NCBI GenBank assembly: GCA_000306725.1
Contig: CP003083.1
Coordinates: forward strand, 2,840,042-2,904,041
Reading direction: 5' to 3'
DNA from: Methanolobus psychrophilus R15
Lineage (GTDB): Archaea; Halobacteriota; Methanosarcinia; Methanosarcinales; Methanosarcinaceae
Length of the DNA: 64,000 nt
A program made the position numbers and the translations under genes. Shown here one piece after another: positions 23,401-41,344 of this stretch (its first letter is position 1; the number at the start of each line of letters is the position of its first letter). Under the pieces are notes generated by a model. It saw only the letters and a program-made list of their open reading frames with translations, was not told where the DNA came from and ran no database searches.

Positions 23401-23498
23401 GGATTGTTATTGTGATTTCTTTGACTTTATACTGAGCCTGTAGATAAGTAATTGTTTAATCCATGATATAATTATCAGGTTTACTAAGAGGAGTTTAA

Positions 23499-23642
23499 AT
23501 GCAGAAATAAGAATACAAATGTGTTTTGATATTAGGCATAGGCGAAAGAACTACAAGAAAACTAAATGATTATGGTCAACATGGATGGCAGCTCATTGAA
23601 GTTGTATGGGCATGGCATTATTTCAAAAGGCCGATTGAATGA
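23499..23642 (+). pseudogene. DUF4177-like gene copy with a nonsense codon
   Basis: Reads M-Q-K-stop-E-Y-K-C-V-L-I-L-G and continues in frame to 'KRPIE'-stop. It is a close paralog of the intact gene at 30318-30461, where the fourth codon is Tyr. The TAA at 23508-23510 is the only clear lesion. A good ribosome binding site (gaggag) precedes the ATG, so loss is probably recent. Confidence 0.85.
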
Positions 23643-25255: not shown

Positions 25256-26232
25256 ATGCGCCTTCGGCTCATGAATAAGTATGCCGATAATCAAATGAAG
25301 CATATATCTGCAGCTGCGATCGAAGAGTCATACATGCTTACAGAAGAGGCTGTGAAGCTATCCACTGGTCTTGCAGAAAACGTTGTAGAATCTATAATCC
25401 AGATGCTCAAGGATGAAGCTATCTATACAACACATCCCAACCATCTGGCAAAAAGGAGAGAAGATCTCTGGGGAGGAGAACGATACAAAGCTGTAAGATT
25501 TGCCAGGACTTTCACTGCAGATGTCGCCACCAACACAAATGTGTATCGGTATCGTCAGCGTGGAGCGGAATATGTTGAGTTCGATGCAGAGCTTGATGAC
25601 AGGACTACAGATCAGTTCAGGGCCTTACATGGGACTATTTTTGATCTGTCAAATGGAGATACTTATATCATCCTCCACTTTATCACCATTGCCGCAGTGG
25701 TCTGATGCCAATCCCCATCACCAAAGAGATAGATGAGAGCCTGTTATTCGAGAACAGGGACGTTAGTGGCTTTGAGAAGGCTCTTGATGATTCAGTCGCC
25801 TAGAATCGAGTCCAGCGTAAGGAGGTACGAGGTCAAAATCAAGAAAAAGAATTATGAGAACTGTTTTGCCTTCGACTTTAATGGAAGTATCGTCTTAGAT
25901 AAATCAGGAACAAGAAACCAGATAGAGATAACAGAAGCTGAAGGGTGCTTACCCCGGGGACGGTGTTCACTCACAATCACTCAGGTGGAAGTTCGTTCTC
26001 CATGGAGGACATCCTGACAGGATCCTACTTCGCGGTACGTGAAATATTTGCAACTGGGAAATACCGTACATATGTGATGGAAACCTCTGATGGGTCTAAC
26101 CTAGACTATGCATTATGGCGGGAACGTGGGTATCGAACTTTCCAGGAAGCAAGATATGAAGTCACGATAAATCATCAGAGAAGATATGCAGCTGGCCTAT
26201 TGGCAGAAGAGGAGTCAACAAAGACTTTCTGA
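25256..26232 (+). pseudogene. Phage head morphogenesis (MuF/SPP1 gp7-like) gene, broken by frameshifts
   Basis: Three consecutive frames make one protein. Frame 1 (25256-25705) ends with 'RQRGAEYVEFDAELDDRTTD' and 'FRALHGTIFDLSNGDTY', the MuF-type core. The expected 'PPLHYHHCRSGLMPI' continues in another frame through about 25803. After that, 'CFAFDFNGSIVLDKSGTRNQ' leads into 'LTPGTVFTHNHSGGSSFS', a C-terminal domain with a metal-binding-like HNH(S) motif seen in some gp7-type minor capsid proteins. At least two indels (near 25690 and 25945) plus a TAG (25801) disrupt it. It is a remnant of an integrated virus. Confidence 0.75.
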
Positions 26233-26296
26233 CATGATATTTGCAGAAAGTATCAAATATTATTCCTGGATATAAATATACGTGGATTGATGAACA

Positions 26297-26533
26297 ATGA
26301 CGGTTAGTGAACCACAAATGATAATCGACAATCGTTCCTTGGAAGAGGTTATCATCAGCCCAACTTGTGGCAAATGTATTCATCTACGGATAGGTATTCG
26401 AGTTTCAGGGGTCAACGCACGTGATGCTTTCCCCGATGGTATCCCTGCAGAAATCTGGCACGGTGACAATGACCACAGAAGGCCTTACCCTATAGATCAT
26501 GGTATTCGTTTTTACCCTGCAAAGTTTAAATAA
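26297..26533 (+). CDS. Small phage-associated protein, function unknown
   Basis: 78 residues: 'LEEVIISPTCGKCIHLR', then 'DAFPDGIPAEIWHGDNDHRR' and 'PYPIDHGIRFYPAKF'. This resembles short proteins that often follow phage head-morphogenesis genes and normally carry additional Cys in the central part ('CxxCKHL...CDAFPDGIP'). Here the second Cys pair seems lost (residues read GVNARDAF), so it may be decaying with its neighbour. No ribosome binding site is obvious. Linked to the prophage remnant by position (65 nt downstream). Confidence 0.5.
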   Translation: MTVSEPQMIIDNRSLEEVIISPTCGKCIHLRIGIRVSGVNARDAFPDGIPAEIWHGDNDHRRPYPIDHGIRFYPAKFK

Positions 26534-26719
26534 TAAAATGCATTCCTCCCTATGAGGAATAACACTTTTCAAGGCAATTATTCTCATAATTCAGGCCGTT
26601 TTGGCTCGCTTGCTCGCCCTCTTGACTAATGGACGGGGCGTGTGTAAATTTTGCCCCGCTTGCAAGACTCAGTTGGCTTTAAATGCTCGCCAACCTCGTC
26701 TAACAAGCGTGTGAAACTA

Positions 26720-27815
26720 TAGTCCCTAACTCAACAATTCACACTTTTTATTTGTGCATTAAATGTTTCTATCCATTTTTTTGCAAACGATAATGAGCTC
26801 TCTACCCTCATAAATTCCATTTTGATAATATCCCTCAAATGTTCTTTTGATCTGACAAATTTGACTGACACTTCTCTTTTGATTGTTTTCCAGACAAATT
26901 CTACTGGATTTAGATCAGGTGAATAAGGTGGTAGGAACACAAGTGTTATTTTTAAATCTCTCGCTTTACTTATCGTTTTCTTTGCATGATGCGATCTTGC
27001 ATTATCGAGAACAAGAATTATTCTTTTCCCTGGGTTTTGCTCTACAATTTTTTCCAGGAATTCACACACATCTTCTGTTTTTGAGCTTTTCATAAAATCA
27101 ATGATACTGTTCCCGTTGATCGAATAAAACGCAAATGCATTTGCTTTAACGTAATCCGTATTTTTTATTATCAACGGTTTTTTAAATGACCATAATCTTT
27201 GCGTGTTTGCTTTTGTTTGTGGTGAAGATTCATCCAGAAAACCTATGATATACTGCTCATCTTGACCAATATGTTTTGGAATTGCTTCGGTTAGTTTTTT
27301 TAAGATCTCTTCAGCGTTTTTAGGTCTTCTGTAGTCAAGGGGATATGGCTTTGAGTGATACATGTTAAAACTGTGAAGTATAACTCCTACTTGTTTCTCT
27401 GAATATTCTACGCCATATTTTTCCTTTATTAACTTCCAGACTTCTCTTGTAGTCCAGTAATCCTTATTTTCCAACAAAGCTCTTAATTCCTTTTTTTGTT
27501 CATCAGTAAGTTTGGATTTCCTACCTCCGCCAAAATTTGGCATTAAGGCGGCATAGCCGCCTTTATTCCAACTTTCTTGCCAGCAATATCCTGTTTTCTT
27601 AGTCACTCCTACTTTAGTAGCAGCTTCTTCTACAGAATCCCCTAAATATCTAAATTTAACAAAATAGAGCCTTTTCAACACTCTTGAATTGTTCTCGTGT
27701 GTGATCAAATCGTTAATCTCGTCGAGAATTACCTTTCGGTCAATCAGAATTTGTTCTTTCCCCGCCATAAGATAAGATAAACATTAATACGTGTAGTAAG
27801 TTGCGTTGAACACTA
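26720..27815 (-). mobile_element. IS630-family element, copy 1 (intact)
   Basis: 1096 bp, starting tagtccctaactcaac and ending gttgaacacta (other strand tagtgttcaacgcaac), flanked by a TA on each side, the standard IS630/Tc1 target. Boundaries are confirmed by the second copy at 40193-41289, which diverges exactly outside these points. It carries one intact transposase. Confidence 0.9.
26731..27768 (-). CDS. IS630-family transposase
   Basis: 345 residues. The N-terminal ~150 residues hold two helix-turn-helix units ('SVEEAATKVGVTKKTGYCW', 'YSEKQVGVILHSFNMYHSKP'). The DDE core follows: 'IIGFLDESSP' (first Asp), 'IILVLDNARSHHAK' (second Asp) and 'LPPYSPDLNPVEFVWKTIKR' (Glu). All catalytic residues are present, so the element may be active. 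The other copy carries a one-base insertion. Confidence 0.93.
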   Translation of the reverse strand: MAGKEQILIDRKVILDEINDLITHENNSRVLKRLYFVKFRYLGDSVEEAATKVGVTKKTGYCWQESWNKGGYAALMPNFGGGRKSKLTDEQKKELRALLENKDYWTTREVWKLIKEKYGVEYSEKQVGVILHSFNMYHSKPYPLDYRRPKNAEEILKKLTEAIPKHIGQDEQYIIGFLDESSPQTKANTQRLWSFKKPLIIKNTDYVKANAFAFYSINGNSIIDFMKSSKTEDVCEFLEKIVEQNPGKRIILVLDNARSHHAKKTISKARDLKITLVFLPPYSPDLNPVEFVWKTIKREVSVKFVRSKEHLRDIIKMEFMRVESSLSFAKKWIETFNAQIKSVNC

Positions 27816-27881
27816 TAAATTGAATCGGTGAAGAATTCACTGGCTTTTTCACCTCTTCAACTTCGCTTACACGCCCCGTCC

Positions 27882-28630
27882 GTTAGCTGAAATGGCTTAA
27901 AAATAAGAAAGGAATGATAAAATGAGTGAATTAGAAAAACCAGTTATTGTTGAATTCCCTTTAAGAGGAGAGTGGATGGCTCCCAATACTCCGGGGACAA
28001 AAGTGCCAAGCCATGGCACAGAGCAATTTGGTCAAAAGTATGCATTTGATTTTCTTCAGATTGATTGGGATAAAAAAGGAATGCATTTTTATAATGCTAG
28101 TAAACTAAGATACTTTTTATTAGGTGTCCCTTTGAGTAAATGTTTTTGCTGGGATAAAGAAGTATATGCTCCATGTGATGGAAAAGTAATTGAGTGTGAA
28201 GATGGTTTTAACGAAAGACGCATAGTCCATTTATTTACTGACATGGCTGTTGTAATAAAGAATGCGCTGTTTTTTAACCTAAAAAGAGGATGGCAACCTG
28301 TGTTAGGAAACTATTTGATTATGGACTGCGGAAATGAAGTATATGCATTCTTTGCTCATTTCAGGAAAGGCTCAATTAATGTTTCAGTTGGGGAAAATGT
28401 AAAAAAAGGGCAATTAATAGGGAAAGTAGGACATTCCGGAAATTCAACTGCCCCACATTTGCATTTTCATCTTATGGATAATAGTGACCTGTTGGAAGCA
28501 AATGGAATTCCATGTGCTTTTGAAGACTATGAAGTTTTTCTGGAAAACACCTGGGTTACTGTCACTAAAAGAATACCAGCTGCAAAAGATAAGATTAGAT
28601 TTTTTAAATAGTAGAGCCACTTCAGCTAAC
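27882..28630 (+). other. Cassette-like unit: one gene between 16-bp inverted repeats
   Basis: GTTAGCTGAAATGGCT (27882-27897) is mirrored by AGCCACTTCAGCTAAC (28615-28630) with one mismatch. They enclose a single gene with 24 nt before its start and 3 nt after its stop. In integron cassettes the cassette start (GTTRRRY side) is complementary to the 5' arm of its own attC, which is the relation seen here. The right-hand hairpin seems truncated, and no intI is present. Confidence 0.5.
27922..28611 (+). CDS. M23-family (LytM-like) metallopeptidase domain protein
   Basis: 229 residues, no signal peptide. The N-terminal part has 'VPSHGTEQFGQKYAFDF' (first His and Asp ligands), then an inserted segment, 'YAPCDGKVIE', 'GNYLIMDCGNEVYAFFAHF', 'VSVGENVKKGQLIGKVGHSG' and 'NSTAPHLHFHLMD' with the HxH zinc ligand. 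This is the M23 fold that cleaves Gly-containing peptides in bacterial walls; in a methanogen without murein it may be a defence or fitness factor. The gene is AT-richer than its surroundings and sits alone in a cassette-like frame, which suggests transfer. Confidence 0.85.
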   Translation: MSELEKPVIVEFPLRGEWMAPNTPGTKVPSHGTEQFGQKYAFDFLQIDWDKKGMHFYNASKLRYFLLGVPLSKCFCWDKEVYAPCDGKVIECEDGFNERRIVHLFTDMAVVIKNALFFNLKRGWQPVLGNYLIMDCGNEVYAFFAHFRKGSINVSVGENVKKGQLIGKVGHSGNSTAPHLHFHLMDNSDLLEANGIPCAFEDYEVFLENTWVTVTKRIPAAKDKIRFFK

Positions 28631-28683
28631 AGCATGTATGTGGCAATAGCGGGGAAAGTGATGAAAACCTGAAGTTTGTGACT

Positions 28684-28881
28684 CATTTGTACTATATATC
28701 TAACAATCGTGGAAGGTATTGATGTTGTTTGCGTAATGAAGTTAGTCGATGTTCTTCTTCCCTCCTGAGGGGGTATCTCAACGGACTCCTTAAAGGTTCC
28801 ATTTCCGATGAATACTTCGTTCGCATAACTGCTATAGTTCATTCTTTCAAGTCTGGCAGTAACGTTGTTGGGATTTTTTAC
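28684..28881 (-). pseudogene. LEA14-like (water-stress) protein fragment
   Basis: The minus strand reads 'VKNPNNVTARLERMNYSSYA' then 'NEVFIGNGTFKESVEIPPQE', 'GRRTSTNFITQTTSIPSTIV' and 'RYIVQM'. This fits the LEA-2/WHy beta-sandwich fold, in which 'VxNPN' starts the domain. Both ends are missing; the left break meets the cassette-like unit near 28680, and a TAA/TGA-rich stretch precedes the fragment. Confidence 0.6.
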
Positions 28882-30317: not shown

Positions 30318-30461
30318 TCATTCAATTGGCCTTTTGAAATAATGCCATGCCCATAAAACTTCAATGAGCTCCCATCCCTGTTGACCATATTCATTTAGTT
30401 TTTTTGTAGTTCTTTCGCCTATACCTAATATCAAAACACATTTGTATTCGTATTTTTGCAT
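30318..30461 (-). CDS. DUF4177-like small protein
   Basis: 47 residues, 'MQKYEYKCVLIL' then 'TTKKLNEYGQQGWELIEVL' and 'HYFKRPIE'. The beta strand, helix and 'GxxGWEL' turn are those of DUF4177, small proteins of unknown function. ATG at 30461 is chosen because gtggagg lies 9 nt before it; the frame extends to 30569 but without coding character. A nonsense copy lies at 23499-23642. Confidence 0.75.
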   Translation of the reverse strand: MQKYEYKCVLILGIGERTTKKLNEYGQQGWELIEVLWAWHYFKRPIE

Positions 30462-30628
30462 TGAAAAACCTCCACGATTAAAGAAAGGCTTGCTCATTAA
30501 CAACCTAAAAATAAAAAAGCAATCATTAGCAATTATTTCAATATAAAGATGGGGATATTCTTCTTTCAACCTTAGCTTAATATTTTTTTCATTTGAGTTA
30601 AATCTTGCTTATCAATTGTTGAAGTTTT

Positions 30629-30766: not shown

Positions 30767-31000
30767 TCAAACATTCCTGATCAACTCATTATATTCTTCA
30801 ATCGAAATATTGATCTCATTAAGAATAACTCTTATCAGAGGTCTGGCAAGCTCTTTACTAGAATGGAAGGGAACAGTAGTTGTCCTGCCGTCTACATGCC
30901 TGTAAAAAGCATGACTGCCCTTTTGCCTTGTTTTTTCAAACCCAAGCCGATACAATATCTTTTCCATAGTTTTGGCATCTACCAGTGGTAGCCTGCTCAT
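30767..31000 (-). CDS. hicA: HicA-type mRNA interferase toxin
   Basis: 77 residues of the HicA/YcfA double-stranded RNA-binding-like fold: 'VDAKTMEKILYRLGFEKTRQKGSHAFYRH' with the catalytic His in 'GSHAFYRH', then 'TTTVPFHSSKELARPLIRVILNEI'. It would cleave mRNA when free of HicB. Its start overlaps the hicB stop by 4 bases (ATGA), so both are made from one transcript with the antitoxin first. Confidence 0.93.
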   Translation of the reverse strand: MSRLPLVDAKTMEKILYRLGFEKTRQKGSHAFYRHVDGRTTTVPFHSSKELARPLIRVILNEINISIEEYNELIRNV

Positions 31001-31221
31001 ACGGTGACCTCTATCTGCTGAAGACCAACAAACTCAGGTATTGATCCTTTTTCCTCAGGGTCCATTTCTTCAAGGCAGAGTTCGATCACTTCCTTTAACC
31101 TTACATGCAATTCATCCAGTGTATCAGCCTGGGTATGAGCTCCGGGAATGCCCGGGACAATCGCAACGTAGCAACCTGTTTCTACATCTTTCTCGATGTA
31201 AGCGGTGAATCTGGTAATCAT
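30997..31221 (-). CDS. hicB: HicB-type antitoxin
   Basis: 74 residues: 'FTAYIEKDVETGCYVAIVPGIPGAHTQADTLDEL' is the HicB partial RNase-H-like fold that binds and blocks HicA; 'VRLKEVIELCLEEM' is its last helix. There is no separate DNA-binding C-terminal domain, so autoregulation would need another protein or the complex. Directly upstream of and coupled to hicA. Confidence 0.93.
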   Translation of the reverse strand: MITRFTAYIEKDVETGCYVAIVPGIPGAHTQADTLDELHVRLKEVIELCLEEMDPEEKGSIPEFVGLQQIEVTV

Positions 31222-39355: not shown

Positions 39356-40192
39356 AACTATTTTTATTTTTCTGAAAAACTCCAGATAGAGCAACTTGAA
39401 TCAAGAACAAGGAAAATAATGAGGCAGATAGAGGAAGCAAAAGAGATACAGGAATCTATTGATAAGAATAAGAAGCTGCCTAAAAAGTTCAGGATCAATA
39501 ATGCCCTTGTTGATGTTGTTTATTCATTGCAGACAAAGCTGGTGAATCTTGATGAAGAAGAAGCTATCAAACTTCTCGAAGAACATCTGATCACAGGCAG
39601 AGAGGGATTTTTCTGCCTGAGATCAAGCAAGAATTTGACACTGAAACAAGCTCTTCAAACATACAGGAAAAAGGACTCAATAGAAAAGATCATCCATTCC
39701 CTGAAGAATGAGATTGAGATCAAACCGCTAAGAGTGTGGTCGGATGCTAGTGTTTATGGAGCTATTATTATCGGGTTCATTGCACAATTGTTCATATCGC
39801 TGTTGCGATATGAGTTCAATGAACTCAAACATAAGTCCACAAAATTCATTAAAAATAGCTTATTGAATTTGACAGTTACCGTCGATTTCATGAAAGAAGG
39901 GTCGAAAAAGTACATTTATGCCAACTTTGATGCTATAAATAACTGATCTTAAGGCAAAAAAGGGCAAAATCGTAGAATTTTGCATGAAATTGTTTAAACT
40001 GTCAAATAGGTTTTCCTGACAAAAAAAAGAAAATTCTAGGTCCGAAGAGAAGACATTCTCTTCATCAAGGAGTGAAAACTGTCAAACTTGGGTTAATTCT
40101 TATGGCATTTTCAACCTGTTTTAAATACTCATGCTTTCAGTAAGTCTTTTTTGTATCTCCAGTAGTCACTTTCACTTAACTCGGCTTATTTA

Positions 40193-41289
40193 TAGTCCCT
40201 AACTCAACAAATCACACTTTTTATTTGTGCATTAAATGTTTCTATCCATTTTTTTGCAAACGATAATGAGCTCTCTACCCTCATAAATTCCATTTTGATA
40301 ATATCCCTCAAATGTTCTTTTGATCTGACAAATTTGACTGACACTTCTCTTTTGATTGTTTTCCAGACAAATTCTACTGGATTTAGATCAGGTGAATAAG
40401 GTGGTAGGAACACAAGTGTTATTTTTAAATCTCTCGCTTTACTTATCGTTTTCTTTGCATGATGCGATCTTGCATTATCGAGAACAAGAATTATTCTTTT
40501 CCCTGGGTTTTGCTCTACAATTTTTTCCAGGAATTCACACACATCTTCTGTTTTTGAGCTTTTCATAAAATCAATGATACTGTTCCCGTTGATCGAATAA
40601 AACGCAAATGCATTTGCTTTAACGTAATCCGTATTTTTTATTATCAACGGTTTTTTAAATGACCATAATCTTTGCGTGTTTGCTTTTGTTTGTGGTGAAG
40701 ATTCATCCAGAAAACCTATGATATACTGCTCATCTTGACCAATATGTTTTGGAATTGCTTCGGTTAGTTTTTTTTAAGATCTCTTCAGCGTTTTTAGGTC
40801 TTCTGTAGTCAAGGGGATATGGCTTTGAGTGATACATGTTAAAACTGTGAAGTATAACTCCTACTTGTTTCTCTGAATATTCTACGCCATATTTTTCCTT
40901 TATTAACTTCCAGACTTCTCTTGTAGTCCAGTAATCCTTATTTTCCAACAAAGCTCTTAATTCCTTTTTTTGTTCATCAGTAAGTTTGGATTTCCTACCT
41001 CCGCCAAAATTTGGCATTAAGGCGGTATAGCCGCCTTTATTCCAACTTTCTTGCCAGCAATATCCTGTTTTCTTAGTCACTCCTACTTTAGTAGCAGCTT
41101 CTTCTACAGAATCCCCTAAATATCTAAATTTAACAAAATAGAGCCTTTTCAACACTCTTGAATTGTTCTCGTGTGTGATCAAATCGTTAATCTCGTCGAG
41201 AATTACCTTTCGGTCAATCAGAATTTGTTCTTTCCCCGCCATAAGATAAGATAAACATTAATACGTGTAGTAAGTTGCGTTGAACACTA
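40193..41289 (-). mobile_element. IS630-family element, copy 2
   Basis: 1097 bp, almost identical to copy 1 (a few substitutions plus one extra T), flanked by TA. It sits 100 bp right of the IS1634-type copy and about 180 bp left of the tubulin-like operon, so three elements have landed within 3.6 kb. The near identity to copy 1 indicates recent transposition. Confidence 0.9.
40204..41242 (-). pseudogene. IS630-family transposase with a one-base insertion
   Basis: Identical in layout to the gene at 26731, but the T run at 40768-40775 has eight T where copy 1 has seven. The frame breaks after 'NAEEILKK' (about residue 155), before the catalytic core; 'IIKNTDYVKANAF...' continues in another frame to the stop at 40204. 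Confidence 0.9.
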
Positions 41290-41344
41290 TAATTGCATTC
41301 ATTCTTTATATCTTTTTTAATATTTTACACTAAAATCAGAATGG

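Follow-up and report, generated by a model that had tools for sequence, protein, structure and literature searches.

A probable relic of a bacterial integron cassette in the chromosome of the methanogen Methanolobus psychrophilus R15

Background

In the chromosome of Methanolobus psychrophilus R15, a single peptidase gene lies between short inverted repeats, and directly upstream of it an insertion sequence interrupts what resembles an attC site. Is this an integron cassette in an archaeon, and if so, where might it have come from? A sequence-only reading had proposed a cassette without an integrase, and we followed this proposal through the anatomy of the locus, the relatives of the gene and the rest of the genome. 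Archaeal integrons and CALINs (attC clusters without an integrase) appear, in the parts of the source cited here, as elements of metagenome-assembled genomes (MAGs) only (Ghaly et al. 2022, PMC9668308), and IntegronFinder 2.0, likewise in the part cited, detected no integron among the archaeal genomes that its own database contains and confirmed elements in the MAGs of the Ghaly study (PMC9024848). Among open-licence PMC papers, only PMC9668308 dealt with archaeal integrons since 2022, none joined integrons, cassettes or attC sites with peptidase M23, and the titles and first lines of abstracts held no integron report for Methanolobus.

Methods

Relatives of the peptidase were searched in GTDB contigs and the best 80 of the 99 found were kept. 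Their flanks were scanned for attC sites; the site of one relative (L021) exceeds the length limit of the scan and was read by eye. The complementarity of cassette ends was tested for the window gene (the window being the whole stretch of 64,000 nucleotides that was analysed) and 21 of the best 80 relatives, with a limit of 200 bases for the cassette end; the end of the L012 cassette lies beyond this limit and was read in a comparison of 25 cassettes. A gene tree was built with 29 of the 80 relatives, in which the rows of L021, L031 and L032 include stops (read as X) and are given no weight. Two covariance models were used, R1 with 15 sites from four loci (the centre cut out of the longer ones) and R2 with the four sites of L012. 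Integron integrases were searched with TIGR02249 (cut-off 265 bits).

Results

The gene and the arms that enclose it

The gene and its putative cassette frame comprise the following features:

27922-28611, plus strand: M23 (lysostaphin/LytM-type) peptidase gene, 229 amino acids, open frame intact
27883-28630, plus strand: body of the M23 cassette from the TT of R' to the R'' of its own attC, as given by the arms and their complementarity
27882-27897 and 28615-28630, inverted pair: terminal arms of the M23 cassette, 15 of 16 positions complementary, GTT…AAC form

The open reading frame matched the Pfam M23 family (E 1.2e-17, 64.3 bits), and structure matches of its M23 domain, which the protein has in common with the M23 peptidases lysostaphin and LytM, pointed to these two (4qp5, E 7.2e-8, and 2b44, E 1.3e-6, respectively). 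The HLH motif, which we take to play a role in M23 peptidases, and the adjoining residues were conserved in all seven aligned rows. None of 26 congeners has the gene, and it was also missing in 32 of 33 other genomes of the family and order, the remaining one having a weak M23 match. In the viral collection, no relative of the peptidase was found: one pattern matched seven stretches resembling unrelated phage sequence, and two longer patterns gave zero matches. Among the plasmid and phage matches listed there were only M23 proteins with less than 60% identity to the window peptidase, and plasmid DNA gave no match to the left part and one 59-base M23 match to the right part.

That the gene is tightly enclosed by inverted copies, as had been noticed from the letters, is borne out by the arms (GTTAGCTGAAATGGCT), whose score exceeded that of every one of 300 flank shuffles. 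The left arm begins exactly at the R' box of the upstream site (site 1, described below), while the right arm terminates in AGCTAAC. In the rest of the genome, the left arm matched, with up to two mismatches, its partner and one further stretch (two mismatches); a control pattern also had one such match. In the 25 cassettes from three arrays, start and end were complementary over 3-15 bases, again in GTT…AAC form (mean score 9.7), and scores of at least 10 were reached by 14 of these 25 vs. 3 of 234 mismatched start/end pairs; the window arms scored 13.5. The window thus holds what characterizes an integron cassette, i.e., one gene with GTT…AAC boundaries and a start complementary to its own R'' end. 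In the arm test, the window gene stood out together with L026 and L028 (p 0.0033 each) and L021 (p 0.0066); the arms of L017 (p 0.027) and L025 (p 0.013), which had no site in the scan, were taken as chance. Among the relatives, the arms have nothing but the GTT…AAC form in common, as would suit cassettes rather than the ends of a transposon.

A split upstream site and a halved downstream site

Upstream of the gene, the following features were recognized:

26698-26719, plus strand: 5' half of attC-like site 1, consisting of R'' GTCTAAC, spacer aa and L'' GCGTGTGAA, ending at the IS630 target TA
26720-27815, minus strand: IS630-family insertion that splits site 1 (transposase 26731-27768; TA at 26718-26719 and 27816-27817)
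27818-27888, plus strand: 3' half of site 1, …TTACACGC (L'), cccgtcc and R' GTTAGCT
26626-26643, plus strand: left arm of an outer 18-base inverted repeat
27869-27886, plus strand: right arm of the outer repeat, overlapping the end of site 1

With the IS630 set aside, the outer unit measures 163 bases and its ends are paired at 17 of 18 positions, in agreement with the unit of about 165 bases with 18-bp inverted ends that had been described from the sequence. The inner unit, i.e., the IS-free site 1 (91 bases), reads GTCTAAC aa GCGTGTGAA…TTACACGC cccgtcc GTTAG, or abbreviated GTCTAAC-aa-GCGTGT…ACACGC-cccgtcc-GTTAGCT. Measured against the attC consensus (R'' RYYYAAC, R' GTTRRRY, as given in the part of PMC12901181 cited here), its R'' matches and its R' is off at one position (C for R); the crossover is expected between G27882 and T27883 in this R'. 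The bottom strand of the IS-free site folds at -15.5 kcal/mol; its R boxes pair, GACGG stays unpaired on one side, and a single C is extrahelical. Taken alone, the inner pair that had been pointed out is only moderately unusual: the inner site scored 16.9, which is close to the top when 100 shuffles are ranked by their best scores (maximum 17.1, 91st-ranked 13.7), and its top-strand fold (z -1.66) was equalled by 12 of 200 shuffles. No recognizable cassette gene precedes site 1.

The outer repeat speaks against an attC reading in that, unlike in a usual attC, it pairs the spacer too. It was not preferred as the real attC, as its spacer is fully paired and its left end, GACTAAT, lacks AAC; possibly it arose when the end of site 1 was duplicated in inverted orientation. 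A genome-wide search for the 18-mer with up to three mismatches returned its two arms and, besides them, only a copy in a duplicate of the left half that is linked to the IS630. In this duplicate, the IS630 together with some 480 bases to its left (window 26239-27817) recurs with 99.6% identity at 2950010 of the chromosome (locus L098, 6926-8505), next to pieces that by eye resemble sensor genes. It is probably an IS-linked duplication and looks like one-ended or recombination-driven IS spread. Near-identical copies of the IS630 lie at window 40191-41295 and in L098 (99.6% and 99.3-99.6%).

Downstream, the right arm of the gene leads into a second site:

28624-28660, plus strand: 5' half of attC-like site 2, AGCTAAC AGCATGTATGTGGCAATAGCGGGG AAAGTG, its 3' half missing

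The AGCTAAC of the arm, followed by AGCATGTATGTGGCAATAGCGGGGAAAGTG, constitutes this half; as an R'' it is off the consensus at one position. A complete R''-L''-L'-R' was not found at site 2, whose 3' half is absent, and the lack of a clear 3' arm in the second hairpin, raised earlier as a point against the cassette, corresponds to a truncated site. The expected 3' letters occurred genome-wide only as the complement of the site's own 5' half and in one match with three mismatches, where attC features were not seen. Sites 1 and 2, the former split by the IS and the latter halved, are about 0.74 kb apart (in a CALIN, two or more attC lie within 4 kb).

Relatives of the gene in integron arrays

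The closest among the best 80 of 99 relatives, L012, belongs to a Kapabacteria MAG (CALBDO010000038.1) and is identical at 198 of 229 amino acids (86%) and 597 of 687 nucleotides (87%). The sites on either side of it are of attC type, have spacers of 1-2 and 5 bases and end in CCGTT; site 1 of the window ends in CCGTT as well, like all four L012 sites. The start of the L012 cassette is present twice in its contig, after two different sites, and the two copies are 147/148 identical from AACCGTT on, which has the appearance expected of a cassette boundary, so that movement as a unit between attC sites can be seen for the start of this relative, though not for the window copy. The array further resembles the window in that one of its sites (L012d) is similar to the 5' half of site 2: over 33 bases, none of 2000 shuffles was as good, and for the four L012 sites summed, one of 2000 was (singly, L012a, b and c were equalled by 100, 35 and 16 of 2000 shuffles). 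Unlike the window, it has several intact sites, and its cassette arms are GTTGCCATTAATTT/AAACTAATGGCAAC.

Two more relatives lie in arrays. The one in Lysobacter spongiicola (L028, NZ_FUXP01000023.1) is, with 49% identity, a cassette of a chromosomal integron with 12-base arms and 14 sites read; unlike the window, its attC are of the type ATTCAAGCCGA…TCGGCTTAAT, and elsewhere in its genome there is an IntI above the cut-off (494 bits). The one in a gammaproteobacterial MAG (L026) is a cassette with 10 sites read and no genome integrase above the cut-off. L012, L026 and L028 are real integron cassettes. The relative in an Anaerolineae MAG (L021), with an arm pair, a long site read by eye and a genome IntI of 458 bits, is probably one too. 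The scan found an upstream site in these first three and in none of the other 77 of the 80 relatives; the second-closest one, L013 (Bacteroidales, 78% identity), had no site within 400 bases, and five downstream-only matches in high-GC actinobacterial flanks (scores 16.4-17.9) were taken as chance. Of seven relatives' genomes tested, those of L028, L021 and L022 had an integrase above the cut-off and those of L026, L012, L013 and L031 were below it; no site was seen beside the L022 gene. This M23 family is thus a repeated integron passenger, though 77 of 80 relatives are without an upstream site in the scan. In the gene tree, the window gene is nearest to L012 and L013 by path and falls in no starred clade, so the tree agrees with a link to the Kapabacteria type by path length, without strong support.

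Kapabacteria are members of the Bacteroidetes/Chlorobi group. From this group, the cited part of PMC9024848 reports complete integrons. In the Kapabacteria genome of L012, another contig (C33, locus L119) carries an integrase-like gene with an in-frame stop (best piece 100 bits, below the cut-off), followed by an attC-like site, as well as a further L012-type site detected by R2. We regard L119 (898-1635 and 2288-2371) as a decaying integron. By eye, the integrase-like gene is followed there by a short acetyltransferase-like ORF, the attC-like site and a DUF3800-like ORF.

Integrase and attC searches in the archaeal genome

The host genome is a single contig of 3,072,769 bases. A paper on strain R15 assigns position 26,651 to Mpsy_0031, a kinase with PAS/PAC, HisKA and REC domains (PMC5378194), and in this genome the position lies in an ORF of 1200 amino acids in which PAS, histidine kinase and receiver domains were recognized by eye. 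TIGR02249 gave six partial matches, the best with 42 bits, i.e., no integrase above the cut-off; similar partial matches, none above the cut-off, were found in 14 of 14 control genomes. R1 had zero matches in the window and R2 zero at either site as they stand (its weak matches in the window lie elsewhere, the strongest of them, at 27528 within the IS, reaching 11.4 bits). Genome-wide, no further site was found by R1 with all 142 candidates scored, nor by R2 among the 150 of 298 first-look candidates scored. In Rfam, there was one weak match below the gathering score.

A missing attC score had been named beforehand as a sign against the cassette. Taken literally, both models are indeed silent at the two sites, but this is expected, because site 1 is split by the IS and site 2 lacks a half; the attC call consequently rests on anatomy and homology. 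R1 recovered the Lysobacter, gammaproteobacterial and Anaerolineae sites but missed the Kapabacteria sites though three of them had trained it, and its silence in the archaeon therefore tells little about that type. In the Kapabacteria genome, R2 gave six matches, four on contig C38, which are taken as the training sites (contig size and site spacing are as in L012), and two new ones on C33 and C41; it missed the attC-like site in L119.

Boundaries of the foreign piece

The flanks of the locus include two stretches with counterparts elsewhere:

25476-26600, plus strand: phage-like genes, recurring with a deletion at a paralogous locus of the same genome (G000:C1:11852)
28700-28875, minus strand: 176-base remnant of host sequence, 96% identical to congener G022

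The likeness to the paralogous locus stops at CAGGCCGTT (26600), and that to G022 begins at CTAACAATCG, so that on the right the foreign piece would end at 28700 or close to it. Both boundary points touch GTT/AAC, which is suggestive only. By eye, 28700-28875 is a remnant of a LEA14-like host gene, and in G022 the sequence continues past both ends.

Discussion

By far the best reading of this locus is a degraded integron cassette without an integrase. Probably, the M23 gene is a cassette of bacterial origin, most like that of the Kapabacteria MAG, which now sits immobile in a methanogen chromosome. The earlier proposal of a cassette without an integrase is supported by the cassette-type arms, by the relatives that are cassettes themselves and by the failure of any integrase to exceed the cut-off, and the sequence comparisons suggest that the peptidase came from bacteria via the integron system. 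In a bacterium, an integrase would have recombined the folded bottom strand of the attC between the G and the TT of R', and the gene with its own attC would have been circularized and then have joined an array. What reached the archaeon would have been either part of an array of this kind or one or two cassettes; there, the IS630 presumably interrupted site 1, and site 2 lost its 3' half through a deletion. These two events would have frozen the cassette, with the gene itself remaining open.

As to other origins, the gene could be an ordinary horizontally acquired one with chance (e.g., terminator-like) arms and no integron history in its lineage. This fits the 77 relatives without an upstream site, L013 and the Bacillota ones included, but it leaves unexplained that the arms beat every shuffle and begin exactly at the R' of an attC-like site, and that the closest relative is a cassette; we consider it improbable. 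Terminal inverted repeats around one gene, with several IS630 copies nearby, would also suit a non-autonomous transposon, either a MITE or a mobile insertion cassette, that has the arms as its ends and carries the peptidase as a passenger. By eye, however, there is no target duplication beside the arms, and the arms of the relatives differ in sequence beyond their common form. The sequence-only reading had itself named repeats that move without the gene, as in a MITE, as grounds for giving up the cassette, and this objection failed, neither inverted pair having a second copy that moves alone in the genome. The transposon is thus largely refuted already and has very little probability left.

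The closest competitor keeps the cassette but not the array: an integrase acting in trans, from a transient plasmid or phage, would have inserted a single cassette directly at an attG-like site. The left likeness ends as expected of a G|TT junction and the right one starts with what the opposite strand reads as G|TTAG. Yet 97 unassigned bases and site 1 separate the left junction from the gene, the right junction is wrongly oriented for the M23 cassette, and an agreement over three bases can be chance; moreover, a search of 27 genomes from the genus never showed the two flanks together (in G022, both have matches, but these lie on separate contigs). We judge such a direct insertion unlikely, though it deserves more weight than the other two alternatives. 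Its extended form, in which a Kapabacteria-like cassette was placed at an attG-like G|TT by an in-trans integrase and archaea without integrons are targets of direct insertion, is a tentative idea that we also doubt.

For the array-derived relic that we prefer, the cited parts of Ghaly et al. 2022 offer both a parallel and a difference: the archaeal cassettes there are mostly without an integrase and some are common to bacteria, as in the window, but the elements have an integrase, two or more attC, or both, whereas the window, which is part of a single-contig genome, has one cassette whose two sites are damaged (PMC9668308). As the chromosome is a single contig, mis-binning is unlikely for this cassette, and the value of the relic lies here and in the fact that its closest bacterial relative (87% at the DNA level) is itself a cassette, which together give independent support for cross-domain cassette transfer. 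The relic also illustrates how detection can be escaped: when an IS interrupts one site and a deletion halves the second, cassettes such as this one go unrecognized.

The dN/dS between the window gene and L012 is about 0.11 (0.066/0.575), a low value that fits selection, a large share of the path being possibly bacterial. Compared with lysostaphin and LytM, no signal peptide was seen by eye in the window protein, and the host is a methanogen, a group that to our knowledge has no murein, so the target of the peptidase would be bacterial, or its role is another; an anti-bacterial role is a guess. Near the cassette, a HicA/HicB-like toxin-antitoxin pair (30767-31221, minus strand) was recognized by eye. 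In the window, 23494-23642 and 30318-30466 form a 149-base inverted pair (93% identical) that overlaps a small ORF, by eye DUF4177-like (30318-30569).
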